From NCBI RefSeq assembly GCF_016937535.1, contig NZ_JAFHKK010000025.1, positions 1 to 34,914 on the forward strand: 34,914 bases of DNA, in the 5' to 3' direction. Source of the stretch: Sulfurospirillum tamanense. GTDB lineage: Bacteria; Campylobacterota; Campylobacteria; Campylobacterales; Campylobacteraceae. The position numbers and the translations under genes are program-made. Of the stretch, positions 1,239 through 18,135 are shown piece after piece. The first letter of the stretch is position 1. Each line of letters opens with the position of its first letter. The notes beneath the pieces are model-generated. The model had not been told where the DNA came from, ran no database searches, and was given only the letters and a program-made list of their open reading frames with translations.

Positions 1239-1267
1239 GCATCGTGCAACACCATGTTGTGCGGTGC
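1239..1267 (+). terminator. RNA stem-loop between the TolC gene and the ABC exporter gene
   Basis: Twelve consecutive pairs can form between 1239-1250 and 1256-1267, nine Watson-Crick and three G-U, closing a 5-nt loop ACCAT. The U-run after it is weak (TTTT at 1274-1277), so it may be an attenuator, an mRNA-processing site or a leaky terminator rather than a strong intrinsic terminator. It lies 23 bases upstream of the lapB start and its 3' side sits close to the ribosome binding site. Confidence 0.5.
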
Positions 1268-1290
1268 GCAGGGATTTTAAAGGGAGAGAG

Positions 1291-3459
1291 ATGCCAGAAG
1301 AGATTATTAATGCTGTGGGTATAGACCCGCTATTAGAGTGCTTGGTGATTGTTGCCAAACTTCACGGAAAACCTTTTAGTGCTGAATCGCTTATCGAAGG
1401 GCTACCTACCGCCAAAGGGCGTGCTGAGCCGGAGCTTTTTTCTATTCACGGCGCTAAAGCTAACTTTTCTCGCGCCGCGGCGCGTGCGGGATTTACCTCC
1501 AAGGTTGTTAAGCGCGAACTAAAACAAATCCCTGCCCTTGTACTGCCTTGTATTTTGATGCTCAAAGACAAGCAAGCCTGCATTCTAGATGCGTTTGATG
1601 CCAACAAAACCCACGCACGTATCATTGTTCCTGAGTGCGGCGAGGGCGAAACATGGGTGCGTGTAGAGGATTTAGAAAAAGAGTATTTGGGCTTTGCCTT
1701 TTACCTCAAACGCATTTACCTTCAATCCGAACGCAAAGACGACGTGCTTGAACAGCGAGAATCCAAACACTGGTTTTGGGGAACACTATGGCGCTCACGC
1801 AAGCTCTATAAGGACGTTTTATTAGCATCTTTAGTTGTCAATTTTTTTGTACTTGCTAGTCCCTTATTTGTCATGAACGTTTATGACAGGGTCGTGCCCA
1901 ACAATGCCGTTGAGACTCTTTGGGTTATGGCCATTGGGGTAGCGGTAGTCTATCTCCTTGATACGGTACTCAAATTTTTACGCGCCTATTTCTTGGAAGT
2001 GGCAGGTAAAAAAAGTGATATTATCATGTCTTCCATGATTTTTGAAAAGGTCATGGCGCTCACCATGGGTGTGTGGCCAAAGTCCATTGGCTCTTTCGCG
2101 AACAACCTCAAAGAATTTGAATCCATTCGCTCTTTTTTTACCTCCGCCACGGTGTCTACCATCATTGACCTACCCTTTGTGGTAATTTTTATTGTGGTGA
2201 TTTATTTTATCGGCGGCTCTATTGTCGTGGTTCCTTTGGTGGTCATGCTCTTGCTCCTTGGGTATGCACTGTCCATTAGACAATCCCTTAGTAAAAGTAT
2301 CGAAAGCGCCTATAAAGCCGCGGCACAAAAAAATGCTATTTTAATTGAAAGCCTTAGCAACATCGAAATGATTAAAACTATGGGTGCCACAGGGCGTGCA
2401 CAGTTTCAATGGGAAGAGGCTTCGGGGGAGATTGCGCAAAAAGGGCTAAAAACTCGCATTATTTCAAATTCTATTTCCACTATTACTGCTCTTTTGGTGC
2501 AACTCAACACCGTTGCAGTGGTAGTGTATGGGGTATATCTGATTCAAGATTTAAGTCTGACCATGGGGGGATTAATTGCAACGGTCATTCTCTCTTCCCG
2601 CGCTATTTCACCCCTTGGGCAAATTGCCTCACTAATGGCGAATTACCAACACACCAAAACGGCTTTAACCTCCCTTAATGACATCATGGCGCTTCCTGTG
2701 GATAGGCCTCACGGAAGAGAGTACATCAATCGAGAGAAATTTGAAGGGAAAATTGAATTCAAAAACGTCACCTTTACCTACCCAGGAGCCTTGAAACCTG
2801 CCCTTGAAAATGTCAGTTTTGTCATTCAACCCAAGGAGCGTGTTGGTATTGTAGGAAGAATTGGGTCTGGAAAAACCACTCTTGAAAAACTGATTCTTGG
2901 GCTATATCAACCAAGCTCGGGGAGTATTTTAATTGACGATATTGATATCAGTCAAATCGACCCTGCGGATTTGCGCACCCATATTAGCTACGTTTCCCAA
3001 GACATTGTGCTTGCCAATGGCACCGTCAAAGACAACATTGCCTATAAAGCGCCCTACGCTACCGATGAAGAGATTTTAGAAGCAGCCAAGCTAGCGGGCG
3101 TAGAAGAATTCATCCGCCAAAACCCGCAAGGATACGAGATGGAAGTGGGCGAACGCGGTGCTGCCCTTTCAGGAGGTCAGCGCCAAAGCATCGCTATTGC
3201 TAGAGCGTTTTTGCTCGATGCGCCTATCGTACTTTTAGATGAGCCAACAAACTCCATCGACAACACCATGGAGGCAAAAATTAGAACCCATTTTGCCCGT
3301 AAATTTGAAAATAAAACCATCATGCTAATTACTCACAAAACAGCACTCCTTCCTCTTGTAGATAGGCTTATCATTCTCGATAATGGCAAAATTGTCTTGG
3401 ACGGCCCACGTGATAATGTCTTAAAACAACTCCAAGGAAATGGAGGCGCCCGTGTTTGA
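1291..3459 (+). CDS. lapB: Type I secretion ABC transporter (LapB-like permease/ATPase)
   Basis: Inner-membrane exporter ATPase that drives secretion of the large adhesin through the LapC/TolC conduit. The ATG at 1291 is preceded by AGGGAGAGAG and gives 722 residues, the usual LapB length; a GTG at 1264 lies inside the upstream stem-loop and is less likely. Residues 1-140 form a C39-peptidase-like domain in which the catalytic Cys position of the DCG motif is Pro (DPLLECLV), so it should bind substrate without cleaving, as is known for LapB/HlyB-type exporters. About six membrane helices lie around residues 165-440. The nucleotide-binding domain has Walker A GRIGSGKTT (about 521-529), signature LSGGQRQ (about 625), Walker B VLLDEPT (about 645) and the H-loop ITHK. 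Its end overlaps the next gene. Confidence 0.93.
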   Translation: MPEEIINAVGIDPLLECLVIVAKLHGKPFSAESLIEGLPTAKGRAEPELFSIHGAKANFSRAAARAGFTSKVVKRELKQIPALVLPCILMLKDKQACILDAFDANKTHARIIVPECGEGETWVRVEDLEKEYLGFAFYLKRIYLQSERKDDVLEQRESKHWFWGTLWRSRKLYKDVLLASLVVNFFVLASPLFVMNVYDRVVPNNAVETLWVMAIGVAVVYLLDTVLKFLRAYFLEVAGKKSDIIMSSMIFEKVMALTMGVWPKSIGSFANNLKEFESIRSFFTSATVSTIIDLPFVVIFIVVIYFIGGSIVVVPLVVMLLLLGYALSIRQSLSKSIESAYKAAAQKNAILIESLSNIEMIKTMGATGRAQFQWEEASGEIAQKGLKTRIISNSISTITALLVQLNTVAVVVYGVYLIQDLSLTMGGLIATVILSSRAISPLGQIASLMANYQHTKTALTSLNDIMALPVDRPHGREYINREKFEGKIEFKNVTFTYPGALKPALENVSFVIQPKERVGIVGRIGSGKTTLEKLILGLYQPSSGSILIDDIDISQIDPADLRTHISYVSQDIVLANGTVKDNIAYKAPYATDEEILEAAKLAGVEEFIRQNPQGYEMEVGERGAALSGGQRQSIAIARAFLLDAPIVLLDEPTNSIDNTMEAKIRTHFARKFENKTIMLITHKTALLPLVDRLIILDNGKIVLDGPRDNVLKQLQGNGGARV

Positions 3460-4828
3460 GAAACTTCCTAAAATCGACCCTCACGCCGTGCGCTCTGTCT
3501 CTAAAAAACAGAGTTATTCTCCCCAAGATTTAGCATACATGAGAAGCCTCAGTGCAGCAGTCTTAGAGAAGTCCACCCTTAGTAGCCGTTTGATTTTGTG
3601 GACAATCGCCCTTTCGGTTGCTTGGCTTGTCTTATGGGCAAGTTACGCTTCTGTGGATGAAATAGCACGCGGAGAAGGCAGGGTTATTCCTTCAAGCCGC
3701 GTCCAAGTGGTGCAAAACCTCGAAGGAGGCATCGTCGAAGAACTTTACGTGCGCGAAGGGGACAACGTCCAACGCGGCCAACCCCTTCTTAAGATTCAAG
3801 ACATTCGTTTTGTGAGCTCTTTTCAAGAAAACCGCCTACGCATCCAAGAACTCAAAGCCAAAACCATCCGTTTGTACGCAGAAGCCAATGGTTTGGATTT
3901 TGACAGTGCCCCTAGAGACCAAACGCTAGACTCTTCTTTTTTGGACGAAGAAAAAAGCCTCTTTTTAAGCAATAAAATCCAACTTGAAAATGCCATCGAA
4001 ATCATCAACAGCCAACTGCGCCAACGCACTAGCGAGCTCACTGAAATACGTGCGCGCATTCGTCAGCTCACCCGTAGCCTAAGTCTTCTTAAAGAGGAAA
4101 TCACCCTCAAAGAACCCATGGTTAAACAAGGAGTTGTGCCTGCGGTGGAGCTATTGCAATTACGCCGCCAGCTCAATGATGCCGAAGGAAGCCTAGAGAG
4201 CGCCAAGCTTTCTGTGCCACGCATCGAATCCTCCATTGAAGAGACCCGCGGCAAAATCCAAGACACCGTTCTTGCCTTTCGCAACAAAGCCAAAGAGCAG
4301 TTCAACGAAGTTTCTGCCGAACTCATGCTCACTCAGCAATCCATCGGTGCCCTTACTGACCGCGTAGACAGAGCCATCGTGCGTGCACCTGTAAGTGGTA
4401 CGGTTAAGCAGCTCTTTACCAATACTGTGGGCGGGGTAGTAAAGCCGGGTATGGACATCATGGAAATCGTACCCATTGATGACGCACTGCTTGTGGAAGT
4501 GAAAGTCAAACCCTCCGACATCGCTTTCATCCAACTCGACCAACCTGCAACGGTCAAATTTACCGCCTATGATTTTTCCATCTACGGCGGCCTAACAGGT
4601 CACGTGAGCCAAATCGGCGCAGACACTATCACTGACGAAAAAGGCAATACCTACTATGTGGCGATGATTAAAACCGACTCTACACACCTAAGTTCTGCTA
4701 ATGAGATTTTACATATTAAAGTTGGAATGGTAGCCAGTGTTGACATTATCACAGGCAAAAAAACAGTCTTGGACTTTTTACTCAAACCCATCCTCAAAGC
4801 CAAACACAATGCCTTACGGGAGCGTTAA
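3452..4828 (+). CDS. lapC: Type I secretion membrane fusion protein, HlyD family (LapC-like)
   Basis: Periplasmic adaptor linking the ABC exporter to the TolC-like channel. I chose the GTG at 3452 because GGAGG lies five bases upstream (3442-3446); the ATG at 3440 would have AAGGA only one base away. The product has 458 residues, one membrane helix at about residues 46-66 (LILWTIALSVAWLVLWASYA), a lipoyl half-motif (VVQNLEGGIVEELYVREGDNVQRGQPLL), a long coiled coil (about 110-290), the second lipoyl half (IVRAPVSGTVKQL) and a C-terminal beta-barrel. The layout is that of the HlyD/LapC/PrtE family. It overlaps the end of lapB by 8 bases, and the next gene starts 2 bases after its stop, so these are co-translated or at least co-transcribed. 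Confidence 0.92.
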   Translation: MFEKLPKIDPHAVRSVSKKQSYSPQDLAYMRSLSAAVLEKSTLSSRLILWTIALSVAWLVLWASYASVDEIARGEGRVIPSSRVQVVQNLEGGIVEELYVREGDNVQRGQPLLKIQDIRFVSSFQENRLRIQELKAKTIRLYAEANGLDFDSAPRDQTLDSSFLDEEKSLFLSNKIQLENAIEIINSQLRQRTSELTEIRARIRQLTRSLSLLKEEITLKEPMVKQGVVPAVELLQLRRQLNDAEGSLESAKLSVPRIESSIEETRGKIQDTVLAFRNKAKEQFNEVSAELMLTQQSIGALTDRVDRAIVRAPVSGTVKQLFTNTVGGVVKPGMDIMEIVPIDDALLVEVKVKPSDIAFIQLDQPATVKFTAYDFSIYGGLTGHVSQIGADTITDEKGNTYYVAMIKTDSTHLSSANEILHIKVGMVASVDIITGKKTVLDFLLKPILKAKHNALRER

Positions 4829-4830
4829 TT

Positions 4831-5433
4831 ATGATACTTTGTTGCGTCACTTACCCCACTATTTTTGCCCATTGGAAAGCAGCCATTGAAACAGAAAATC
4901 CTTTACATGTAAAGGATTTTTCAACATTACTTGAAACCCTCAACACCTCCTCTTCGATGATTCTACTCGTCCATGGAGAATTTTTTGGAGAAACCCCTTT
5001 GGTTTCGGGTATTTTGCAACTGCGCACCCATGCCCCAAGAACACGCATTATGGTCTTAGAAGATACCCCTACCTTTGAAGAGGGCAAGCCTCTTTTGCGC
5101 CTGGGTATTTTTGGCTATGCCAATGCAAGACTCTCAGCTGCCCATTTACAACAAGCACTTATGCTTATTAGAGATGGGAATATTTGGCTCTATCCTGAAT
5201 TTTTACTCCAAATGATTCAAGGGCTTCCCCAAACCGACTCTTCGGATTTTCTCACCCAGCGCCTCACAAAGCGAGAATACGAGATTGCTACCCTTGTAGC
5301 CCAAGGACGTTCCAACAAAGAGATTGCCAAAATCTCTTTTATCACCGAACACACCGTTAAGGTGCATTTACGTACTATCTTTGAAAAATTGGGTATTCAC
5401 GATAGGCTCTCTCTGGCGCTAATGTTTCGCTAA
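4831..5433 (+). CDS. LuxR/FixJ-type transcriptional regulator with degenerate receiver domain
   Basis: A 200-residue protein: an N-terminal receiver-like fold (about 1-120) joined to a clear LuxR-type helix-turn-helix (about 144-200, LTKREYEIATLVAQGRSNKEIA, then TVKVHLRTIFEKLGI). The usual phospho-acceptor Asp strand is replaced by ILLVHGEFFGE, so classical phosphorylation looks unlikely. The architecture resembles VpsT/CsgD biofilm regulators, but at the position of the VpsT c-di-GMP motif W[FLM][TS]R this protein has WLYP, so c-di-GMP binding by that motif is not supported. The ATG at 4831 is preceded by CGGGAG and starts 2 bases after lapC. Its place between the secretion genes and the adhesin suggests it controls the adhesin promoter; this is inference. 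A perfect 26-bp palindrome lies inside it. Confidence 0.85.
   Translation: MILCCVTYPTIFAHWKAAIETENPLHVKDFSTLLETLNTSSSMILLVHGEFFGETPLVSGILQLRTHAPRTRIMVLEDTPTFEEGKPLLRLGIFGYANARLSAAHLQQALMLIRDGNIWLYPEFLLQMIQGLPQTDSSDFLTQRLTKREYEIATLVAQGRSNKEIAKISFITEHTVKVHLRTIFEKLGIHDRLSLALMFR
4895..4920 (+). repeat. Perfect 26-bp palindrome built around TTACATGTAA
   Basis: The 13 bases AAAATCCTTTACA are followed immediately by their exact reverse complement. The central ten bases are the iterated palindrome TTACATGTAA (4903-4912). It lies within the regulator coding region, encoding residues around ENPLHVKDFS, so the protein frame is kept intact. Confidence 0.9.
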
Positions 5434-5534: not shown

Positions 5535-8500
5535 ATGGCAACAGTCGTCGGATTTGTGACACAGATCACAGGAGTCGTAAGAGCAGTTTCAGCGGATGGA
5601 ACCGTTCGTGTTTTGGTCATGGGAGATCCTGTCCATGCCAACGAAACCCTTGAAACCGTAGGACAAAACAGTGGTGTTAGCGTGCTTTTTGAAGACGGAC
5701 GCCAAATTGCAATGCAAGGCCAAGAAACTTCTTTGCTAGATGATTCTGTTTACAATGGTCAAGGTTACGCCGAATCTGAAGTACAAGCTATTCAAGAAGC
5801 TCTAGCCCAAGGTCAAACCCTTGAAGAAGCTGCCGCAGGTGAAGAAGGCCCAGCGAGTGATGGTGGTTCTGGCGATATCTTTGTCGCTGAGCGTACAGGA
5901 GATTTGGGCGATATAGGCTCCTATATTCTCCCTACTGATTTTGCTACCTCACAAGTTGAAGAAGGGGCGGAAGATGGTCTTATCAACGTCGCTCCTACGG
6001 TGTTTGATGTAAGTGCTGTGCAAATCGAAGTGCTTGATGGCCAAAACGTCATCTCCGGACAACTCCTTGTCACCGACACAAACCCCAACGATACCCACGA
6101 ATTTTTTGCTGTTGAAGACTCCTTAAATGTCACCACGCCTGATGGGGTTGCCATTGAGGGTCTTACTTTTGTCCTTAATCTTGATGGCAGTTACACCATC
6201 ACTGGCGATTTTAACGCTTTGGCTGTTGGCGAAGAAGCTGTTGTAACCTTTCAATACTTTGCCGTCGATAACTTTGATGCTGTCTCCCAAACAGCTACGT
6301 TTACCCTAACCATAACAGGCACCAATGACCAGCCTGTGGTGAGTGATGTCAACGCAAATGGCGGCACTTTCTCTTGGTTGATAGGCGGAATTGGCAACGA
6401 AGACCAAGGTGAAAATGAAGGTCAAGGTGATTATCCATCGCTTTTAGCAGTACAATCCAATGTCGATCTTGAAACATTGAATGCCTTTATCAGCACAGGT
6501 GAAGGCTCAACAACTATTCAGGAATATTTTACCCAAGAACAAGGGTATGACCCATACGATGGCTCCGCACTCAAACTCACCCTTGGTGTCAGTGCAGGAG
6601 AAACCGTTGTGTTTAACTGGACGTTTTTTGATGCTGAGGGAGGCGAAGGGGAAAATACAACAGATTTTAATGATTTTTCTTTTGTTGTCATCAACGGTGA
6701 AATTATTTATCCTTTGGCAAACTCTGCTCAAGAAGGCAACCAAAACAACGGCACCTTTAGCTACACCTTTAGTGAGGGCGGAACGCATGAGATTGTTTTT
6801 GGTGTCATGAACGATGAAGACAGTGCCGTTAGCTCAAGTTTACAAGTCACACACGTCTCTGGTGGAGAGATTATTGACGCTCAAACTGCAGGACATGTTG
6901 AAACGCTCGAAGGAAGCAACCTTGTCCACGAATCTGCTGACCCTCAATCAGACACAGAAGACGTATATACAACCTTTGAAGGCACCCTTCCTGCCGTGCA
7001 AGATGACGACACAAACGACACCCACACTTACGAGGCAGTAGAAGAATCTTTACATGTAAACAATGAACTTGTTACTGACCTCACCGTTACCGTCAACGCA
7101 GATGGCACTTACAGCATCCAAGGCAACTTCAATGCCCTAGCCGCAGGCGAAACCGCCACCGTAACCTTTCAGTACGTTGCCAATGACGGTCGTGGGTTTG
7201 ATGGCACTGATGGCATCAACGAAAGCTCTATCAGCGAGCCCGCCACAGTAACTCTTACCATCACAGGTACGAATGACCGCCCCGTGGTTGAAGATGTAAG
7301 CGATACACAAAACGAAGCCTTAAACGGTCTTAACACTTTCGCAGGAACCCTTGTTGCAAGTGATGAAGATGCGACCGATACACACACTTACGCCTTAGTA
7401 GAAGAGAGTGCCACTATCGACAACGAACTCATTACAGAATACAGTGTAGAGGTAAACGAAGATGGCACTTATAGTGTCAGTGGCGACTTCAATGCTTTAG
7501 CTACAGGCGAAAGTGCAACCATCACATTTCAATACACCGCCACAGACAGCAGCAGCACGCAAGCCAATGGCGAATCAGACACCTCTGCTCCCGCAACAGT
7601 AACACTGGTGGTCACTGGAACAAACGACCAACCTGTAGTTGAGGATGTTACCGCTGTGGTGACAGAAGCATCTTTGCTTGACACGCCACGAGAAGACTCC
7701 CGTTATGAGGGACAACTAAGCGCATCTGATGCTGATGCTAGTGACACCCACACCTTTAGCATTGACAGTGGCACGTACCGCGTCAGTATTACTACAGTAG
7801 ATAGCCAGGGTGCTGAAACTGTCACGACACTTGCTCCATGGGCTGTAAGTATTTTGATGCTTACTAATCAACTCTCCATTGATCTCAACGCCGAAACAGG
7901 CGAATACAGTGTTTATAGTACATGGTTTAACACACTTGGTGCCAACCAAAGCATGAGTGTCTCCTTTGATTACCGTGCCAACGATGGTCAAGGCTTTAGC
8001 GGTGACTCGGCTCATGAAAACTCCTTGAGCGAAGCAGCAACTGCAACCCTTGTGGTTCAAGGCACCAATGACCAACCTGTTGCATTCCCAGACAATGTTA
8101 GCGCATGGGAAGCCTTTTTGGCCAATACGCCTAGCGAAGATGCGATGTTTGCAGGAAGATTGCCTTTTGCTCTCGATGAAGACACACTGGATAACTTCGA
8201 CCTTACTTATGTTGGCGTTGATGCAGACGAAAATGGAGTGATTGACACAACCACCACAGGACCAGTTGATGATGCCGGTGCTCCCGTGGTAGACCCATCA
8301 CAAACCGTTGTAACCATTAACCCTGATGGCACTTACAGTGTTGTCAACCCCACTTTCAATGGCCTTGCCGCTGGAGAAAGCGCAACAGTCACATTCCAGT
8401 ACTACGTCAATGATGGCTCGGGTGCGGTAGCGGGCGCCAACCCACACGAATCTCCTGATAGCGAACCTCAAACCATCACACTTACCATCCGTGGCACCAA

Positions 8501-11500
8501 TGACCGCCCCGTGGTTGAAACCATTAGTGATGAAGAAAACGAGGCCCTTGAGGGCACCAACACGTTCACGGGAACCCTTACCGCGACCGACGAAGATGTC
8601 AACGACACACATACTTTCCACTTGCGCCACAACTCCGTCAATTCTGACAATCCACTTGTGACTGGCCTAAGTGTGATCCTCGCGCCCAATGGCGAATACA
8701 GCGTCAGTGGTGATTTCAACGCTTTAGCCGTCGGCGAGAGTGCGACCATCACATTCCAATACCGTGCAAATGACGGTTCTGGCTCTCCCCTTTGGGATGA
8801 ATCACGCTATTCTAGCTACGAAACTGTAACATTAACCGTTACAGGCACCAATGATGCGCCTGTGATTTCTGAACAATCTGTCACCTCAGGTGACGCAAAA
8901 GAAGCAGGCGTTGTGACCGATGAGGGCATAACTACACCTGTCGCAGCTGTACAAGCCACTGGTACTTTGGTGGCAACCGATGTGGACAATGGCGCTACAT
9001 TGACATGGACGGGTGATGACGCAGGTACATACGGAAACTTTGCGATTGACGCAACAACGGGCGAATGGACTTATACCATTGATAGCACACCTGGCTCACT
9101 TGCAGACCAACTCGCCCAAGGTGAAACCAAGACAGAAACCTTTACCGCAACCGTCACGGACGAACACGGTGCGACCGATATCCAAACGGTAACCATTACC
9201 GTTACGGGTACCAATGACGCACCAATAGCTGAACTTCAAGACGACCTCAACGCCGTTGAAGATGGCACCCTTATCACAGGACAACTTGTCGCCAACGACA
9301 TCGACAACGATGATAATGCGGCCACATTAACCTACACTCTCGTAGGCGACGCACCTGCTGGCTTTGTACTCAACAGCGACGGTAGCTACAGCTTCGACCC
9401 TTCCGATGACGCGTACCAATCCCTTGGCGTTAACGAGACTGCCGATGTCACCTTTACGTGGATTGCCACCGACAGGCACGGAGCCTCCTCTGAACCCCAG
9501 GAAGTTACCATTACCGTCACAGGAGTCAACGATGCGCCCGTGGCAACGGATGATGGCAAGCCAAACTTTACCTTCGGCGCTCTTTCTGGCAGTTACTACG
9601 CTGTTGATAGCGAACACAATGGCCTAGAGGGCAGCACATACAATAACAACAATAGTTACCTTATTGACAACCTCACTGAATTCAAACACATCGTTGCCAC
9701 CACCGACCCTGCTGCGACCTTTGAAGCGACAAAAGTATGGTACGGTTATGGCAACAGCAATGGTGTTTCAACAGGCAACAGCCTAGAGGCGTTTTTAAAT
9801 CACGATGGCGCGTCCCTCAACTACACCGATGGACAAACCAACACCCCTGAGGGCGGCGTACACATCAGCGGAAGCGTATACATCAAAGCAGGTACCTATA
9901 ACTTTAAAGTTCTTGCGGATGATGGCTACGAAATCCTCGTTAATGGCGAAAGTGTTGCCAAGTACAACAACAACCAAAGCCCATCAACCCGAACCCACGA
10001 TGCATTTACTATCGACGCAGACGGCTGGTACGACATCGAAATGTACTGGTGGGACCAAGGCGGCGAGTATGTCTTCAAACCTGAAATCAGTGCCGATGGC
10101 GGACTAACCTACACAGCGCTTTCCAACGAAGGCACTTATGTTACGCCTGAAGATACAGCCTTTACTTTCCAACCCGAAGAGTTGCTTGCCAACGACTTTG
10201 ACATCGACGGCGACACGCTTACTATTATCAGTGTAAGCAATGCGGTTAATGGCACCGTTGAACTCAACGAAGACGGCACCATCACTTTTACGCCCGCAGA
10301 AAACTTCAACGGCATCGCCACTTTTGAGTACACCATCTCTGATGGTAATGGCGGCGAAGACAGCGCGACCGTAACTTTACATGTAAGCCCTGTAAACGAC
10401 GCGCCAGTGGCTGTGGATGACGCTCTTGAAACAAGCAAAGATATACCACTTATCATCCCTGTAGCTGACTTACTGGAAAATGACAGCGATGTAGACGGTG
10501 ACACACTAAGCATCATCAGTGTTGGCGACGCGACCAATGGTACTGTTACTCTTAATGGAGATGGCACCATCACCTTTACACCAACAGGTGGTTTTAGTGG
10601 GGATGCAACCTTTACCTACACTGTTTCTGATGGCAACGGTGGCACAGATACCGCAACCGTCACCATTACAATTGACCCAGGCAACAGCGACCCAACTATC
10701 ACGGTCACTACAGGCAACCCTGAGAATGCCAACGACACTGTATCTGAATCAGGTCTTGCAATCGGCTCAAACCCATCGGCAGCAGCTATTGTTGCTACTG
10801 GTGTCTTCTCCATCGCCGATGCAGACGGACTGGACGACATCACCTCCATCACCCTTGCAGGAACCCAGTTTACTGTTAACGCGTCCGATGGTTTTGCTGG
10901 CATCGTAGGAGAAAGTGCTGATACCCAATACGGCACCGTGACCGTCACAAGTTACAATGGCAATGGCAACTTTAGCTACACCTACGAGCTAAGCGACCCT
11001 GCAACCAATGACGCACCACCTGCACCAACCCACGTAGGCGCACAAGACAGTTTTACAGTTGTTGTTTCTGACGGGGAAGCCTCAGCGGAAGCAACCATCA
11101 CCATTGACATTACCGATGATACACCACAAAGCTTTAGTAATGAAGCGACCTTAAGTGTTGCTGCAAGCGAAGTACTAGTGGGTGGTTTTGCTGCGGGCTG
11201 GGTTAATGTTGACACAACAGGCAACAGCTACACAGGAACCAATCTAGACACAGATGCATATAAAGACAAAATCGAATGGGGAGACCCTGTTAATCCTGGG
11301 CAAAGATCTGGGTATGTGTTCACGGACAACGAAGCTTTGCGCTCCAACAATGGTGTGGAAATCGATACAGAATTCACACTTGGAACTTTTATACACAATA
11401 ACTTCAAAACATGGTCTGGCACCTCTACATTAGAATCAGCCGACCTTGAGGTGAAGTTTATGGTCACTATCAATGGCCAAAGCCACCTCATCACACACAC

Positions 11501-13208
11501 TATTCAGTTTGAACACGAAGAAACTCCTAACAATGACGTTGACCCACTGGAAGATGCAGATGTTGTGACTATTAAAAACGCAACATTCCAAACAGAGATT
11601 AACGGTCAAACCTACACCTTTAGTATTCTTGGTTTTGTGGATGGAAGCGGCAACCCTGTCACCACCGTACACACCCTTGAAAACCAAGCCAATTCCTTTG
11701 AGTTGGTCGCTAAAATCTCCTCTACTGACGCCTTACCCACTGTTTCAGACAGTGTTGGGCACGTTGGCTCAGACTGGGGTGCAGATGGCGCAGCTAGTGC
11801 ACAAAGCATCACATGGGAAAATGAGGGAAGCACCATCGAAAGCGGTGCCATCCAAGGCACTTACGGCACATTGACTGTGGATGCAAATGGCAACTACACC
11901 TACACTCTTGACCGCGATGTAAAAGACAGTATGGACGCGGATGAAACCTTAACTGAGGAGTTTACCTATTATCTCACCGACGGAGATGGTGACCCTGTGG
12001 CTTCCACACTCACCGTTACTATCAACGGCCAAGCCACGCTGGACGCGATTGATAACCTTGCCGCAGTGACCATTGACGAGGTCGCTATTGCTCCTGCACC
12101 GACAACCGAAGAGGTATTAGACACATTTAAACTTCAAGGTTCAAGCAATAGTTACAACAACCGTACGCTCACCAAAACAGAGCAGTTTAGTATTGAAGAG
12201 GACGCAACAGGCAACCTTAACTTCAGTGTGGACGTGACCACCGTTGGGGGCGGCACAAAAGCAACCTATAGTTGGACGCTCTTTGAGATTGTTGATGGTG
12301 TTAAAACTGCCATCAATGGTAGTGGCGCAACCCTCAACAGTGACGGAAGCATTGCGGTTTCTGGCTTGGACGCAGGAGACTATGAGATTTCCATCACCAC
12401 CAATGTCCACGGCAGGTCTGGCAACTGGTTCTGGGGCTACGACTATCCAAGCGTCGAAGTCAGCGATGTTGACCTCATTGTACAGCCCGCTTCTTACACT
12501 GAAACGCAAGCAACGGATGTAAGCGGCAATATCCTTAGCGATGACATGCTTGGTTCTGTTAACACAACCTTGTCTATTTTCACTGAAGGTGATTTTGAAG
12601 CCGCAAGCGGCTCAGGCACCACAGTTGCAGGCGAATACGGCACATTGACTATTTTTGCAAACGGCGACTACACCTATACGCCTATCGCTTCGCTTAATAA
12701 CGTTGGGCAAGTAGAATCCTTTACCTACCAACTCACCCATCCAAGTGGTGCGACCGATAAGGCAACACTTGACATCCGCCTTGATAGCACCACCCTTAAC
12801 GTAGTCTGGGGCGGAGAAGGAGAGCTTACAGGAACTACCGGCGATGACATCTTAGTGCCAACCCTAGAATCTACACTCATTGATGGCGGGGATGGTCTCG
12901 ATACCTTGGTGCTTTCTGAGGACATTGACCTTAGCAATGTTCACAACATTGAAATTCTCAAACTTGACACCGATACACCTATCAGCCTTACAGCCGAAGA
13001 TGTATTTAATCTTACCGATGAAAACAACGTCTTGATTGTTTCAGGTGAAGGCGATGTTCAAATCGCTGTTGACGGACTAGACGATAACGAGGTCTGGACA
13101 AAAAATGATGCGGCCAGCACTCCAGAACAAAGCGTCTACGAGGCGGTATACAACGGTAGCGACATTACACTCATTATCGATCAAACCGTCGATACGGACA
13201 TTCTCTAA
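5535..13208 (+). CDS. lapA: Giant LapA-like surface adhesin with retention module (type I secretion substrate)
   Basis: A 2557-residue, highly acidic secreted adhesin in which I see no cysteine. Residues 1-90 (VVGFVTQITGVVRAVSADG and on) are a LapA-type retention module, followed by EEAAAGEE at 97-104, matching the di-alanine LapG cleavage context (AAAG at 99-102). Then come tandem cadherin/VCBS-like domains of roughly 100-150 residues ending in GTNDxPV, a PA14-like domain (about 1343-1530), two more VCBS-type domains (LANDFDIDGDTL, LENDSDVDGDTL), several unlike beta-rich domains, and a C-terminal region with only a couple of RTX-like turns (GELTGTTGDDILVP, DGGDGLD) followed by a hydrophobic/acidic secretion tail. 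It should stay anchored in the TolC pore by its N terminus and mediate attachment, possibly to sugars through PA14. The ATG has AAAGGA upstream. A stem-loop follows the stop. Confidence 0.93.
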   Translation: MATVVGFVTQITGVVRAVSADGTVRVLVMGDPVHANETLETVGQNSGVSVLFEDGRQIAMQGQETSLLDDSVYNGQGYAESEVQAIQEALAQGQTLEEAAAGEEGPASDGGSGDIFVAERTGDLGDIGSYILPTDFATSQVEEGAEDGLINVAPTVFDVSAVQIEVLDGQNVISGQLLVTDTNPNDTHEFFAVEDSLNVTTPDGVAIEGLTFVLNLDGSYTITGDFNALAVGEEAVVTFQYFAVDNFDAVSQTATFTLTITGTNDQPVVSDVNANGGTFSWLIGGIGNEDQGENEGQGDYPSLLAVQSNVDLETLNAFISTGEGSTTIQEYFTQEQGYDPYDGSALKLTLGVSAGETVVFNWTFFDAEGGEGENTTDFNDFSFVVINGEIIYPLANSAQEGNQNNGTFSYTFSEGGTHEIVFGVMNDEDSAVSSSLQVTHVSGGEIIDAQTAGHVETLEGSNLVHESADPQSDTEDVYTTFEGTLPAVQDDDTNDTHTYEAVEESLHVNNELVTDLTVTVNADGTYSIQGNFNALAAGETATVTFQYVANDGRGFDGTDGINESSISEPATVTLTITGTNDRPVVEDVSDTQNEALNGLNTFAGTLVASDEDATDTHTYALVEESATIDNELITEYSVEVNEDGTYSVSGDFNALATGESATITFQYTATDSSSTQANGESDTSAPATVTLVVTGTNDQPVVEDVTAVVTEASLLDTPREDSRYEGQLSASDADASDTHTFSIDSGTYRVSITTVDSQGAETVTTLAPWAVSILMLTNQLSIDLNAETGEYSVYSTWFNTLGANQSMSVSFDYRANDGQGFSGDSAHENSLSEAATATLVVQGTNDQPVAFPDNVSAWEAFLANTPSEDAMFAGRLPFALDEDTLDNFDLTYVGVDADENGVIDTTTTGPVDDAGAPVVDPSQTVVTINPDGTYSVVNPTFNGLAAGESATVTFQYYVNDGSGAVAGANPHESPDSEPQTITLTIRGTNDRPVVETISDEENEALEGTNTFTGTLTATDEDVNDTHTFHLRHNSVNSDNPLVTGLSVILAPNGEYSVSGDFNALAVGESATITFQYRANDGSGSPLWDESRYSSYETVTLTVTGTNDAPVISEQSVTSGDAKEAGVVTDEGITTPVAAVQATGTLVATDVDNGATLTWTGDDAGTYGNFAIDATTGEWTYTIDSTPGSLADQLAQGETKTETFTATVTDEHGATDIQTVTITVTGTNDAPIAELQDDLNAVEDGTLITGQLVANDIDNDDNAATLTYTLVGDAPAGFVLNSDGSYSFDPSDDAYQSLGVNETADVTFTWIATDRHGASSEPQEVTITVTGVNDAPVATDDGKPNFTFGALSGSYYAVDSEHNGLEGSTYNNNNSYLIDNLTEFKHIVATTDPAATFEATKVWYGYGNSNGVSTGNSLEAFLNHDGASLNYTDGQTNTPEGGVHISGSVYIKAGTYNFKVLADDGYEILVNGESVAKYNNNQSPSTRTHDAFTIDADGWYDIEMYWWDQGGEYVFKPEISADGGLTYTALSNEGTYVTPEDTAFTFQPEELLANDFDIDGDTLTIISVSNAVNGTVELNEDGTITFTPAENFNGIATFEYTISDGNGGEDSATVTLHVSPVNDAPVAVDDALETSKDIPLIIPVADLLENDSDVDGDTLSIISVGDATNGTVTLNGDGTITFTPTGGFSGDATFTYTVSDGNGGTDTATVTITIDPGNSDPTITVTTGNPENANDTVSESGLAIGSNPSAAAIVATGVFSIADADGLDDITSITLAGTQFTVNASDGFAGIVGESADTQYGTVTVTSYNGNGNFSYTYELSDPATNDAPPAPTHVGAQDSFTVVVSDGEASAEATITIDITDDTPQSFSNEATLSVAASEVLVGGFAAGWVNVDTTGNSYTGTNLDTDAYKDKIEWGDPVNPGQRSGYVFTDNEALRSNNGVEIDTEFTLGTFIHNNFKTWSGTSTLESADLEVKFMVTINGQSHLITHTIQFEHEETPNNDVDPLEDADVVTIKNATFQTEINGQTYTFSILGFVDGSGNPVTTVHTLENQANSFELVAKISSTDALPTVSDSVGHVGSDWGADGAASAQSITWENEGSTIESGAIQGTYGTLTVDANGNYTYTLDRDVKDSMDADETLTEEFTYYLTDGDGDPVASTLTVTINGQATLDAIDNLAAVTIDEVAIAPAPTTEEVLDTFKLQGSSNSYNNRTLTKTEQFSIEEDATGNLNFSVDVTTVGGGTKATYSWTLFEIVDGVKTAINGSGATLNSDGSIAVSGLDAGDYEISITTNVHGRSGNWFWGYDYPSVEVSDVDLIVQPASYTETQATDVSGNILSDDMLGSVNTTLSIFTEGDFEAASGSGTTVAGEYGTLTIFANGDYTYTPIASLNNVGQVESFTYQLTHPSGATDKATLDIRLDSTTLNVVWGGEGELTGTTGDDILVPTLESTLIDGGDGLDTLVLSEDIDLSNVHNIEILKLDTDTPISLTAEDVFNLTDENNVLIVSGEGDVQIAVDGLDDNEVWTKNDAASTPEQSVYEAVYNGSDITLIIDQTVDTDIL
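5991..9545 (+). repeat. Tandem VCBS/cadherin-like repeat region of the adhesin
   Basis: Repeat units end in GTND(Q/R/A)P near bases 6316, 7264, 7616, 8059, 8490, 8841 and 9206, with a GVNDAP variant near 9523 and VNDAP near 10395. Recurring internal phrases are NDTHTY, DGTYS(V/I), GDFNALA.GE.A..TFQY and ND(G)RGF. Spacing is uneven (about 317-950 bases), and the longest interval, 6316-7264, contains an inserted unlike domain (about residues 275-450). At DNA level the copies have drifted apart, so recent recombination is not obvious. Confidence 0.85.
9562..10116 (+). other. PA14-like carbohydrate-binding domain inside the adhesin
   Basis: The stretch encodes GALSGSYYAVDSEHNGLEG, later VHISGSVYIKAGTYNFKVLADDGYEILVNGE, and HDAFTIDADGWYDIEMYWWDQGGEYVF. 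Glycine/aspartate-rich turns in a beta-barrel order with ADDGYEILVNG are typical of PA14 domains, whose known members in adhesins bind glycans with calcium. It breaks the run of VCBS repeats. Domain call is from pattern only. Confidence 0.7.
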
Positions 13209-13226: not shown

Positions 13227-13874
13227 ATGAAAAAGCGCTTTGTCTTAGCTACGCTGACGGCAGCAACGGCTGCCGTCCTTTTTAGTACTTCTGAGTTTAT
13301 CATTGAGGGCCAAATGCTCGAAAAAGTCGAGAAAGAGTATGGCTTTTTTGCCAAAAACCGTGCATTAGCACTAGTTGGCATGATGAACAAAGCTCAAGGA
13401 CGTGATGAGCATGAAAAACTCGAAGCAGTCAATGACTTTTTCAACAAAACCCCTTACGGTCTAGACAAAGATGTCTGGGGTGTGAGTGATTATTGGGCAA
13501 CAAGGCTAGAATTCATCGGAAAAGACAAAGGCGACTGCGAGGATTACGTTATTGCCAAGTACTTTACTCTTTTAGAGCTTGGCATTGACCCCAAAAAGCT
13601 TTTTATGGGGTATGTTAAATATGTCCCTTTAAACATTGCTCACATGGTGTTGCTCTACTACGAAACCCCTCGTTCTGAGCCTCTAGTTCTAGACAACTAC
13701 AACCGCAAAATCTTTCCCGCCTCCACGCGCAAAGATTTAATTCCCGTATACAGTTTTAGCGGCAGCTCCTTATTGGATGCCAAAAATGTACAGCTTGGCA
13801 AGCTGCTGCCTGCTAGCACGCGCCAAAAGCGCGCATGGGACGAACTCAAAATCATCAAAAAGGATCAGCCATGA
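13227..13874 (+). CDS. lapG: LapG-like periplasmic cysteine protease (transglutaminase-like, DUF920)
   Basis: A 215-residue protein with an N-terminal signal-anchor (MKKRFVLATLTAATAAVLFS). The family catalytic triad is visible: Cys104 in KGDCEDY, His139 in IAHMVL and Asp156 in LVLDNY. Asp103 and Glu105 flanking the Cys match the calcium-binding pair known in LapG. The known role is to cut LapA-type adhesins after the retention module, releasing them, when LapD does not hold it; the adhesin at 5535 carries the expected AAAG context. The start sits 18 bases after the adhesin stop without a visible Shine-Dalgarno, behind a small stem-loop. The stop overlaps the lapD start (ATGA), indicating coupling of protease and receptor. 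Confidence 0.93.
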   Translation: MKKRFVLATLTAATAAVLFSTSEFIIEGQMLEKVEKEYGFFAKNRALALVGMMNKAQGRDEHEKLEAVNDFFNKTPYGLDKDVWGVSDYWATRLEFIGKDKGDCEDYVIAKYFTLLELGIDPKKLFMGYVKYVPLNIAHMVLLYYETPRSEPLVLDNYNRKIFPASTRKDLIPVYSFSGSSLLDAKNVQLGKLLPASTRQKRAWDELKIIKKDQP

Positions 13875-15835
13875 GTCTTTTCAAACAGATGGCTATCACG
13901 TTTACACTTTTTTTAGCCCTCGTACTCACTTCGGTGATGGTGCTAAACTTTAACACCGCCACCGAATTCACCCAGCATCAACTCTACACTGAGGCAAAAA
14001 ATACGGCTCATTCTTTAGGGCTTTCTTTAGCAAAAGCCGCTAGTCCTGACGACTTGGCCCTCATGGAGACGATGATAAACGCTATTTTCGATAGCGGGTA
14101 TTACGAACGCATAGCTCTTGTTGGAATTGATGATACGCCCATTTATGTGCGCGAAACCAAAGTTCTCCTAAGCGATGTACCCCAATGGTTCATCAACACC
14201 ATTGAACTAGAAAGTGTCAGCGCCCATAGCGACATCATGATGGGCTGGCACCAGTTTGGCGTCTTGGAAGTCAAAGGCCATACAGGCAATGCCTACCGCC
14301 AACTTTACCACACATTTCTAGAACTGTGCAAAACCTTTGCCATCCTCGGCGTGCTTGTGTTTGGCATACTTTACGCTTTGCTTTCGCTCTCTTTGCAATC
14401 CCTCAAACGCATCGCTGAACAAGCAAGGGCTATCATCGATAATGCCTTTATTATTGAGAAAAAACTCCCCTTTACCACAGAATTTCGCTCCACCACCGAA
14501 GCCATGAATGCCATGGTTGCAAAAGTCAAAGACATCTTTGAACGTGAAAACGAAACCCTCAAGCGTTATCACGAACTACTCTACATTGACGCGCAAACCA
14601 AACTCTACAACAGACGCTACATCAACACCACTTTGCCAGATTATTTTCAAACCGACACAGGGCTCTCCCGTGGCGCCTATGCGATGGTGAGTATCGACGA
14701 AGCAGAACGCTTCAAGCAAGAGGTGGGTTACGAGCACTACAACACCCTCATTCAAACCATCACAGACAATCTGAAAGAAAAGTTTGGTACGGAAGAAAAC
14801 ATCATCATTGCGCGCCTCAACGAGAGCGATTTTTTTGTTTTAGCGCCCCTAATGGAGCTTGGTGATGTGGCCAAGCGCATGGAAGAGGTCATGAATGCCA
14901 TTCATACTAATATGAAAACGGAAGGGACGCAAGAAAAGAACACGTATTTTGCCGGCTGTAGCGTTGGTCTTTACCATGAAAACGAAACCCTTAAATCTCT
15001 TTTTTCGCGAGCTGATTATGGGATTATGCACTCTAAAAGTGATGAAAATTTTACGGTGTACATCTGCGACAAAGAAGAAGAAATCCTTACTTTGGGTCGT
15101 GAAGAGTGGAAAGAAGAGTTGCGCAAAAGCATGGAAGAATCACGCATTCAGTTAGCACGTCAAAGTGTCATCAAAAAAGAAGATGCCGAAGAACACCTCC
15201 TTCACGAAGAGGTTTTTTTGCGTTGGTTAGATGGTCAAGGAACCTTGCATGCTGCGGGTCGATTTGTGCCCATCGCCATGCGCCTAGGGCTTGTTGCAAC
15301 ACTGGATCGCTATATGATCGAAAAAGTCTTCGCACACATCAAGGAGCATCCTGGTGCGCCTTCACTTGCCTTAAACCTTAGCGGAGACTTTGTCAAAAAC
15401 CACGAAAACATACGTTGGCTTAGAGCCCTACTTGATGAAAAAACAGTTGACTTTAGAGAAAAAATATGGATCGAAATACACAATACCGTGGCTTTATACG
15501 CGCCAGAAGATACCCTTTTGCTTGCAAAAATGCTTAAAGAAATGGGGTGTCATTTTGGCCTAGACCACTTTACTCTTCCTTCCCAAGGGGCGGCGTACCT
15601 TCAAGAGTTACGGCCAGCATACATCAAAGCCAACAGCCTTTATTTGCATGATGTCTTCTATGATACCTTCACTGGAGAGGGGCGAGAGAATTTTACCAAT
15701 CTTATCCGAAGCCTAGGTATCACACTCATCGCCACCAATACCGAGAACCAAAGCGAGGTTCAAGCCTTATCCTCTATGGGCGTTTCGCATTTTCAAGGCA
15801 GACTCATTGCCTCTGCTTCACCTCTTGTTTCGTAG
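13871..15835 (+). CDS. lapD: LapD-like c-di-GMP receptor with degenerate GGDEF and EAL domains
   Basis: Inner-membrane receptor that should bind c-di-GMP inside and sequester LapG outside. ATG at 13871 (AAAAAGGATCAGCC upstream) gives 654 residues; an upstream in-frame ATG at 13835 is inside lapG and is rejected. Order: helix 1 (about 8-27), periplasmic LapD/MoxY-type domain (28-150) with a Trp at 126 in GWHQFG, matching the LapG-contacting Trp known in LapD, helix 2 (about 153-175), HAMP, a GGDEF-like domain in which GGDEF is LNESDF (316-321), and an EAL-like domain with EEVFLRW instead of EALLRW, IEIHNT and LDHFTLP. The key catalytic motifs of both domains are lost, as expected of a receptor rather than an enzyme. 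It overlaps lapG by 4 bases and the second lapG-like gene by 29. Confidence 0.92.
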   Translation: MSLFKQMAITFTLFLALVLTSVMVLNFNTATEFTQHQLYTEAKNTAHSLGLSLAKAASPDDLALMETMINAIFDSGYYERIALVGIDDTPIYVRETKVLLSDVPQWFINTIELESVSAHSDIMMGWHQFGVLEVKGHTGNAYRQLYHTFLELCKTFAILGVLVFGILYALLSLSLQSLKRIAEQARAIIDNAFIIEKKLPFTTEFRSTTEAMNAMVAKVKDIFERENETLKRYHELLYIDAQTKLYNRRYINTTLPDYFQTDTGLSRGAYAMVSIDEAERFKQEVGYEHYNTLIQTITDNLKEKFGTEENIIIARLNESDFFVLAPLMELGDVAKRMEEVMNAIHTNMKTEGTQEKNTYFAGCSVGLYHENETLKSLFSRADYGIMHSKSDENFTVYICDKEEEILTLGREEWKEELRKSMEESRIQLARQSVIKKEDAEEHLLHEEVFLRWLDGQGTLHAAGRFVPIAMRLGLVATLDRYMIEKVFAHIKEHPGAPSLALNLSGDFVKNHENIRWLRALLDEKTVDFREKIWIEIHNTVALYAPEDTLLLAKMLKEMGCHFGLDHFTLPSQGAAYLQELRPAYIKANSLYLHDVFYDTFTGEGRENFTNLIRSLGITLIATNTENQSEVQALSSMGVSHFQGRLIASASPLVS

Positions 15836-16457
15836 TTTTTTTCTTCTTGGGGCGCTCTTAGTGTTTGCTTGGGGGCGCCCTTTTGTCCTTTCTCCAAGCT
15901 TTCTTGCCGCCCAAAAAGCACCTTTGGCTCAGCCCATTTTAAAAGATTACGAACGCTTTATGAACGAAGTTGCATCAGAAAAAGCTTTACATGTAACGCT
16001 TGAAAAAGTCAATCATTACCTCAACGCCATCGTTCCCATACACGATGCATACCAATACGCTTCTGAAGATCATTGGGCCACCAGAGGGGAGTTTTTAGCC
16101 CAAGGTGGTGGAGACTGTGAAGATTATGCCATCAGCAAATACTACACCCTCAAAGACTTAGGCATTGCACCAAAAACCATGGGGTTATGTGTAGTGCATG
16201 ACCGCTACAGTGGGGTTTGGCACATGGTTTTGGCTGTTCGTCCGCCAGATTCTACTACACTCGTTCTTGATAACCTCAGCTTCAAAATCCTTCCTTTTTC
16301 ACGCCGCACAGACCTGCGCCTTGAAGTGTGTATGAACGAAGAACACACGTTTATTATCGACACCAAAGACCGCTGGCAAGCAACAGAGCGTCCTTTAAAC
16401 TTTCCCGCCTTCAAACAGATGCTAAAACGTGCAAATGTCGAAAAACTCTGGAAATAA
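15807..16457 (+). CDS. Second LapG-like transglutaminase-like cysteine protease
   Basis: A 216-residue paralogue of the protease at 13227, with signal sequence LLFRSFFLLGALLVFAWG. The triad falls at equivalent places: Cys104 (GGDCEDY), His139 (VWHMVL) and Asp155 (LVLDNL), and the calcium-type Asp103/Glu105 pair is kept, so it should be active. Shared phrases with the first copy include the W-A-T-R-x-E-F and KY-(F/Y)-TL-x-(E/D)-LGI stretches, but overall similarity is modest, so this is not a recent duplication. I chose the TTG at 15807 because AAGG lies eight bases upstream; a TTG at 15825 is an alternative. It overlaps lapD by 29 bases in another frame. It may cut the same adhesin at another rate, cut a different substrate, or compete for LapD. 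The palindrome TTACATGTAA lies at 15987. Confidence 0.87.
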   Translation: MPLLHLLFRSFFLLGALLVFAWGRPFVLSPSFLAAQKAPLAQPILKDYERFMNEVASEKALHVTLEKVNHYLNAIVPIHDAYQYASEDHWATRGEFLAQGGGDCEDYAISKYYTLKDLGIAPKTMGLCVVHDRYSGVWHMVLAVRPPDSTTLVLDNLSFKILPFSRRTDLRLEVCMNEEHTFIIDTKDRWQATERPLNFPAFKQMLKRANVEKLWK

Positions 16458-16527: not shown

Positions 16528-18135
16528 ATGCTACGAACTATTCGGGCGAAACTATATGTGTTGCTGGCGCTTCTTGTGATTGGTTTTTCTTTTCTTGGCT
16601 ATGAGATTGTCAAGAGTTCTACTTTTTCTAAAACAGCGCTCACGCGCATGTTGTTATTAGGAGAGATTGAGTACCATGCTGCTACCGCCATGGCAGAGCT
16701 ACGAGGCTACCAAATGTTCCTTTCTCAACAGCGCCTTGATGGCTACAACAATGCGTATCAAAACCTTCAAAAAACCCTTGACCAACTTCTCTCCATTACC
16801 CGCTCCACAGAAAACCAAGAACGTTTGCGCAACCTCAAAAACCTTGCCCAAGCATGGGTTAAGGCCAATGAACCGCGCCTTGGTATTTTGCAAACTCACG
16901 GGCGTCTAACCCAACAAGAGAGTTTCGCACAAACCCATCCTGCCCAACACCAAACCCTCGCACGCCTCACCCAAGAGTCTGCAGTTACCTTTGATGAATT
17001 TATGAAGATCTCCGATGCCTTAGTGGAGCGCATGCGAAACAATAACATTGCAACTATTGAAAAAAATGAGATTTTTCTTGAGGTTGTACTAAGTATCATT
17101 GGGCTAATTTTCGTTATAGCGTTTATTGTTATTTCCCGCTCCATTCAGGCTTCTGTGTCTAAAGCCAAAATGGCCTGTGAGCAGATTCAAGCAACCAAAA
17201 ACCTCAGCACCGTCATTGACACAGGAACAAATGATGAAATCGCCGATGCGATGAGTGCTGTAAACGCCCTTTTGCGCGACCTCTCTAGGGCAATTGATGG
17301 AGCCAAACACACCGCCATTGAAAATGCATCTGTGGCCCAAGAACTCTCCAGCACCTCTTTGAGTATTGGGAAGCGCACCGAAGAGAGTGCTACTCAAATG
17401 GACCAAACCACCCAAGCCACCCAAGCGGTTGCTTCTCTTTTAAAAACCAGCGAAGAAAGCTCTTCTCACTCGGGTCAGCTCATTCAAACCTCTGCTTCTG
17501 AGGTAGATGGAGCAGCTAAAGAAGTTTTGGAAGTCTCAGGCCAGCTTCAACAAGTAGTAGCCCAGCAAAATGAACTTTCTGTGCAACTTGAACAACTTAG
17601 CGCACAAGCAGAAGAAGTTAAGGGAGTGCTCATGGTCATTGCAGATATTGCCGATCAGACCAATCTTTTGGCCCTCAACGCAGCCATTGAAGCCGCGCGC
17701 GCGGGTGATCATGGTCGTGGGTTTGCAGTCGTAGCAGACGAGGTGCGAAAACTGGCTGAACGCACCCAAAAAAGCCTTGATGAGAGCAATGCCACTGTGG
17801 CGGTTATCGTCCAATCCATAAACGGTGCGGTAAGCACAATGCAAAAAAGCGCTAAAGACATTGGGGTTTTAGGAGAAAGAGCTAAAAACACTGAAATCTT
17901 GATGCGACAAAGTGTTGAAGGCATCACGCATGCCAAAACCATTGCACTGCAAACAGTGCAAGACGCCAAAAAAGGTGCAACAGAAACTGCCCAAACCCTT
18001 AAGCGCATTCAAACCCTCAACGAACTCACCTCCACCAATGCTAGGAGCGTTGAAGAGATTGCAGCAGCAGCAGAGCATCTCTCAAAGCTTTCCGAAACCC
18101 TTAGCCATTCGCTCGCTGTTTTTAAAACAGCCTAA
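16528..18135 (+). CDS. Methyl-accepting chemotaxis protein
   Basis: A 535-residue transducer. Helix 1 at about residues 7-27 ([20 protein letters not shown]), a roughly 155-residue periplasmic helical domain of the four-helix-bundle type, helix 2 at about 188-208 ([18 protein letters not shown]), HAMP, and a long cytoplasmic coiled coil. The conserved hairpin tip [21 protein letters not shown] lies near residues 373-393, so it should couple to CheA/CheW. No C-terminal receptor pentapeptide for CheR is present (ends LAVFKTA). The ATG has AAAGGG upstream and its own promoter-like sequence, so it may be transcribed separately from the Lap genes. Its ligand cannot be told from sequence. Position next to the second lapG-like gene suggests, but does not show, a link between surface sensing and adhesion. 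Confidence 0.92.

Follow-up and report, generated by a model that had tools for sequence, protein, structure and literature searches.

The Lap locus of Sulfurospirillum tamanense raises the question of why a single LapD receptor should be accompanied by two proteases of the LapG type. The window analysed here is a stretch of 34,914 nucleotides that makes up one entire contig (NZ_JAFHKK010000025.1) of a 2.46 Mb genome present in 63 contigs. The Lap locus occupies its first half, with all genes on the forward strand and in the order TolC, LapB, LapC, LuxR, adhesin, LapG1, LapD and LapG2. A sequence-only reading of this DNA had proposed that two LapG-like proteases flank one LapD, and this is correct: the open reading frames (ORFs) at positions 13227-13874 (LapG1, 215 amino acids) and 15807-16457 (LapG2, 216 amino acids) both match Peptidase_C93 and lie on either side of lapD. 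Its remark that the canonical system has one LapG also agrees with the well-studied systems consulted here, each of which carries one.

The first gene of the locus (3-1220), whose 5′ end is cut by the contig edge, encodes a TolC/LapE-type outer-membrane factor of a type 1 secretion system (T1SS), as assigned by phmmer comparison with related loci. It is followed by genes for a LapB-type T1SS ABC transporter (1264-3459), assigned from its ORF, its relatives in T1SS loci and a tree, and for a LapC-type HlyD membrane-fusion protein (3440-4828), assigned from its ORF and relatives in related loci. A LuxR/GerE-type regulator (4831-5433) is conserved in such loci, and its relatives match PF00196. 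The next gene (5535-13208) encodes a T1SS adhesin of 2557 amino acids with an N-terminal retention module and a BapA/LapF-type C terminus (NF033682, 46 bits; NF045619, 245 bits). The linker of this adhesin contains a single AAAG motif (residues 99-102, positions 5829-5840), which is the predicted LapG cleavage motif according to the [T/A/P]AAG consensus (PMC13090378).

There is one detectable LapD in the genome (13871-15835; 654 amino acids; PF16448, 132 bits). We place its start at the ATG at position 13871 and not at 13835 because the former creates an ATGA overlap with the lapG1 stop codon and yields the same 654-amino-acid length in the sister genome. The protein has a periplasmic LapD_MoxY_N domain, lacks a GGDEF motif, carries EVF in place of EAL, and displays a GWHQ motif with its Trp at residue 125 (codons at 14240-14251), which corresponds to the loop that docks LapG (PMC4359373). 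This docking Trp is invariant among the 52 LapDs examined (52/52). LapDs of Arcobacteraceae-like genomes (L094:5918-8140, reverse strand, and others, about 740-755 amino acids) have a ~100-amino-acid insertion that splits the periplasmic domain at Pfam positions of about 63-66 and may be an additional module for sensing or docking close to the interface with LapG.

Both proteases match the LapG crystal structures at the sequence level. They exceed the curated Pfam cut-off of 27 bits for PF06035, with 52.2 bits for LapG1 and 57.8 bits for LapG2, and the genome contains no further C93 gene. Both score below the cut-off of 320 bits for the NCBIfam LapG equivalog NF045674 (164.6 bits for LapG1 and 85.1 bits for LapG2). 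An AlphaFold2 model of LapG2 (pLDDT 92) has LapG crystal structures as its best fold matches (4fgp, 4fgo and 4u65; TM about 0.8). The lapG2 gene overlaps lapD, as had been claimed, and the 29-nucleotide translational overlap recurs in the sister genome G009. Likewise conserved there are the TTG start codon of lapG2 and an AAGG Shine-Dalgarno-like site located 8 nucleotides upstream, within lapD (15795-15798). LapG2 evolves faster than LapG1, and comparison of the two genomes indicates purifying selection on LapG2 (dN 0.139, dS 0.96, dN/dS about 0.15). In both genomes lapG2 is directly followed by a gene for a methyl-accepting chemotaxis protein (16528-18135 in the window).

Two C93 proteases are by no means peculiar to this organism. 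Of 397 genomes from the class Campylobacteria, 132 contain PF06035, many of them in two copies, and 133 contain LapD, the two sets differing by three genomes. A tree of 91 C93 proteins and two crystallised LapGs splits into two clades. Clade A comprises nearly all copies that have lapD as the next gene downstream, both reference LapGs (P. fluorescens and Legionella) and LapG1, whereas clade B comprises the copies without a downstream lapD, plus LapG2. When gamma- and alphaproteobacterial outsiders are included, clade B is monophyletic (99/99), sits on a long stem and branches largely by bacterial family. The divergence of the second protease from the first, already evident to the sequence-only reading, is thus the division between these clades. 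A recent tandem duplication as the origin of the pair was ruled out, given that the copies belong to different deep clades.

A census of the two clades relied on profile searches of 80 genomes outside the window's family and on nine examined directly. Clade A is present in 86 and clade B in 55 of the 87 C93-positive genomes outside that family. The only one with clade B and without clade A (G295; L146:6547-9041) lacks both LapD and a clear retention module; an adhesin gene is represented there by its truncated 3′ end, with which the clade B gene overlaps, and the Lap locus is evidently decayed. Clade B hardly ever occurs in a genome that lacks LapD, and its co-occurrence with clade A and LapD is near-obligate. 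The association is strong, but it is counted over non-independent genomes, and its nominal p-value is accordingly not to be read at face value. These trees and counts indicate that LapG2 is a member of an ancient second LapG subfamily, divided from clade A across Campylobacteria, and not a local oddity. The sequence-only reading had named an arrangement common to all Lap loci of the phylum as counting against its proposal, and this is partly borne out: two C93 genes with one LapD are common in the class, and only a second protease adjoining lapD is rare.

Other arrangements of C93 genes were also encountered. There are two tandem clade A LapG genes in front of one lapD at L108:8009-9339, where the upstream copy lacks the docking strand. 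In Photobacterium damselae (L148:7911-8573), an orphan C93 protease gene lies amid a long run of small hypothetical genes on the same strand that resembles an integron cassette array.

The residues expected for catalysis, which had been reported as kept in LapG2, are all in place. Cys104, His139 and Asp155 align with C135, H170 and D187 of P. fluorescens LapG, and the Asp/Glu pair is likewise retained, with Asp103, Glu105 and Asp80 aligning with D134, E136 and D111. LapG1 also has an intact Cys-His-Asp triad and Ca2+ ligands. Throughout the clade B alignment the triad and the residues equivalent to D80, D103 and E105 are found in 36/36 proteins, and the Ca2+-ligand position D106 is D in 30 and E in 6 of the 36. 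The complete conservation of the triad ruled out LapG2 as a pseudoprotease. It is also a reason, together with the loss of the docking surface described below, to consider it very unlikely that LapG2 is a decoy or a regulator of LapG1 that competes for LapD or for the substrate without cutting. A precedent for such a role might be seen in one related genome, where an intact lapG-lapD pair is joined in tandem by a LapG paralogue (L101:8320-8988, reverse strand) whose catalytic Cys is replaced by Ser (GDSEDY), with His and Asp kept; this paralogue is a possible pseudoprotease.

The most pronounced difference between the clades concerns the surface that contacts LapD. The LapG-LapD interface is formed by strand β4 and a pocket that receives Trp125 of LapD, and four residues of P. 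fluorescens LapG (A169, Y176, V205 and Y206) photo-cross-link to LapD (PMC4359373). Our mapping of these residues is supported by the fact that the numbering reproduces the Ca2+ ligand D111 of that study. Among 55 clade A proteins, the four sites are A in 44, Y/F in 55, V/I in 53 and Y in 48, respectively. In clade B, the A169 equivalent is Y or W in 21/36, the V205 equivalent is mostly K, D or E, and the Y206 equivalent shows a mixture that includes V (9), F (7) and Y (7 of 36). The Y176 equivalent exhibits only a weak change, with an aromatic residue kept in at least 20 of 36 proteins. Thus, at the sequence level, three of the four experimentally defined contacts are changed in character and the fourth is less conserved.

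An unbiased scan of the alignment in 111 windows, ranked by the drop in conservation from clade A to clade B, points to the same region: the top seven windows all fall on the docking strand (0.25-0.28 versus a median of 0.11). Identity along this strand is 0.31 within clade B versus 0.58 within clade A, and the PVYSFS of LapG1 corresponds to LEVCMN in LapG2. The idea that the two proteases compete for LapD is weakened accordingly, because the docking strand is lost both in LapG2 and in the whole of clade B. This loss is not the sole change, since a non-contact control site (Y108) is also altered, being mostly P in clade B. In addition, a Leu157-Ser158 pair beside the catalytic Asp is invariant in clade B only. 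The altered sheet of clade B could shift substrate targeting as well.

The genomic positions of clade B genes bear on whether LapD might nevertheless control these proteins. In type I loci of Sulfurospirillum the order is TolC, clade A gene, lapD, LapB, LapC, LuxR, adhesin and clade B gene, and in the clearest cases the last two genes overlap, at the end of the adhesin. Type II loci of this genus have the order TolC, LapB, LapC, LuxR, adhesin, clade A gene and lapD, without a clade B gene. In one genus of Campylobacteraceae, the clade B gene is found at the end of the Lap operon, where it either overlaps luxR or lies immediately next to it. Most clade B genes of Arcobacteraceae and Sulfurimonadaceae are surrounded by housekeeping genes and lie apart from Lap genes; these two family labels are tentative readings that draw in part on gene content, whereas the label Sulfurospirillaceae is anchored by a named contig. 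Only in both genomes of the window's genus and in one relative (G012) is the clade B gene located directly behind lapD.

One alternative is that LapD controls LapG2 as well, by way of another surface or conformational state, and that the gene overlap is a sign of this partnership. The overlap in both genus genomes, the similar placement in G012 and the near-absence of clade B from genomes without LapD are in keeping with this proposal. Moreover, DvhG of Desulfovibrio vulgaris lacks the Trp pocket and is still controlled by c-di-GMP, but by a different receptor (PMC13090378). We consider the proposal unlikely, because the contact strand is unconserved within clade B rather than merely changed, most clade B genes are not beside lapD, and the three clade B proteins that are encoded next to lapD have not regained the docking motif.

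The window's locus follows the type II order, its LapG1 and LapD resemble those of type II, and a clade B gene is added at the end of the operon. It looks mosaic, because the affinities of LapG1 and LapD are with type II and those of the adhesin C terminus and of LapG2 are with type I; LapB is clearly placed with neither. These type I affinities ruled out the simple import of an entire type II Sulfurospirillum locus. Given the type II order with a terminal clade B gene, the layout is best read as a LapG1-LapD pair situated between the adhesin and LapG2, and a purposeful arrangement of two proteases around their receptor is less favoured.

What LapG2 might cut is constrained by the adhesins. 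The sequence-only reading had suggested that the proteases could cut different adhesins and had called for a search of the genome for other retention-module proteins. This search recovered the adhesin at 5535-13208 as the single strong match. A weak match in the same genome (C18:53782-53976) was rejected as a second adhesin because it is of the FecR type and bears a signal peptide; proteins of this type are a source of false adhesin calls in retention-module searches. Some related genomes do have two or more retention modules. However, in the Campylobacteraceae genus that was checked, genomes with clade B have 1-2 modules and some genomes without clade B have up to 7. With one LapD and one retention-module adhesin detected in the genome, and one AAAG site in that adhesin, both a division of labour between two adhesins, which we judge highly improbable, and competition for LapD are disfavoured.

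A different alternative is that LapG2 acts on another substrate or at another step, such as clearance of the retention-module stub that LapG1 cleavage would leave behind, trimming of secretion intermediates, or cleavage of an unrelated periplasmic protein. The altered β-sheet and the Leu157-Ser158 pair are suggestive of a distinct specificity, clade B genes are orphans in two families, and LapD-less bacterial transglutaminase-like cysteine proteases (BTLCPs) such as HvyA act on pathways other than adhesin release (PMC4241560). Furthermore, no adhesin with two cleavage sites was seen in genomes that carry clade B; adhesins have one [T/P/A]AAG site both in the presence and in the absence of clade B. 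Against this stand the near-obligate co-occurrence with clade A and LapD and the fact that several lineages have the clade B gene linked to the adhesin within an operon, and we regard a separate substrate as rather unlikely.

Comparison with known systems places LapG2 close to the LapGs of P. fluorescens and Legionella pneumophila, with which it shares the fold, the Cys-His-Asp triad, the Ca2+ ligands, a signal peptide and the tie to T1SS retention-module adhesins carrying [T/A/P]AAG. It differs from them in lacking the LapD-docking strand and contacts, and in occurring as an additional copy where a normal LapG is already present. DvhG is similarly a LapG-like Ca2+ protease without a usable pocket for the LapD Trp (PMC13090378), but it pairs with the dCache/HD-GYP receptor DvhD. 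No such receptor is present at the LapG2 locus, where the receptor is a normal LapD (GGDEF-EAL, LapD_MoxY_N) with its own LapG1. HvyA sets a precedent for active BTLCPs outside Lap systems (PMC4241560). Like LapG2 as we envisage it, HvyA and other LapD-less alphaproteobacterial BTLCPs are active without LapD, and some are encoded beside a T1SS and VCBS adhesins (Ensifer, L151). Clade B, in contrast, groups with LapGs of Campylobacterota and gammaproteobacteria and separately from the alphaproteobacterial outgroup, which consisted of three BTLCPs other than HvyA. In a search confined to open-access papers, neither paired LapGs nor an Arcobacter LapG turned up, and Campylobacter was co-mentioned with LapG only incidentally.

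We give close to an even chance to the reading that LapG2 is an active, LapD-blind, Ca2+-dependent protease of an ancient clade that acts on the same retention-module adhesin as LapG1. Its activity, its substrate and its freedom from LapD control are the most likely interpretation of the sequence features described above. LapG2 would be directed to export by its Sec-type signal peptide and would fold as a Ca2+-dependent cysteine protease. LapG1 would be the gated protease, held by c-di-GMP-bound LapD. LapG2 would cut the same adhesin without being sequestered by LapD, because its docking strand and neighbouring contact residues are gone. Its output might then be set by expression, Ca2+ or substrate geometry, resulting in basal or c-di-GMP-independent release of the adhesin. 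One gated and one ungated protease acting on one adhesin is the most economical reading of the locus.

Somewhat more tentatively, we propose that Campylobacteria possess a dual-protease Lap system, wherein the adhesin cut by LapG1 is also released, irrespective of c-di-GMP, by a LapD-blind clade that has been kept by vertical descent across the class. Textbook accounts of how intracellular c-di-GMP governs adhesion are built on the Lap pathway, which depends on a single protease that can be held by LapD. If our reading is true, many Campylobacterota would have an ungated branch of adhesin release, and the LapG1/LapG2 pair would represent a natural separation of catalysis from LapD control.
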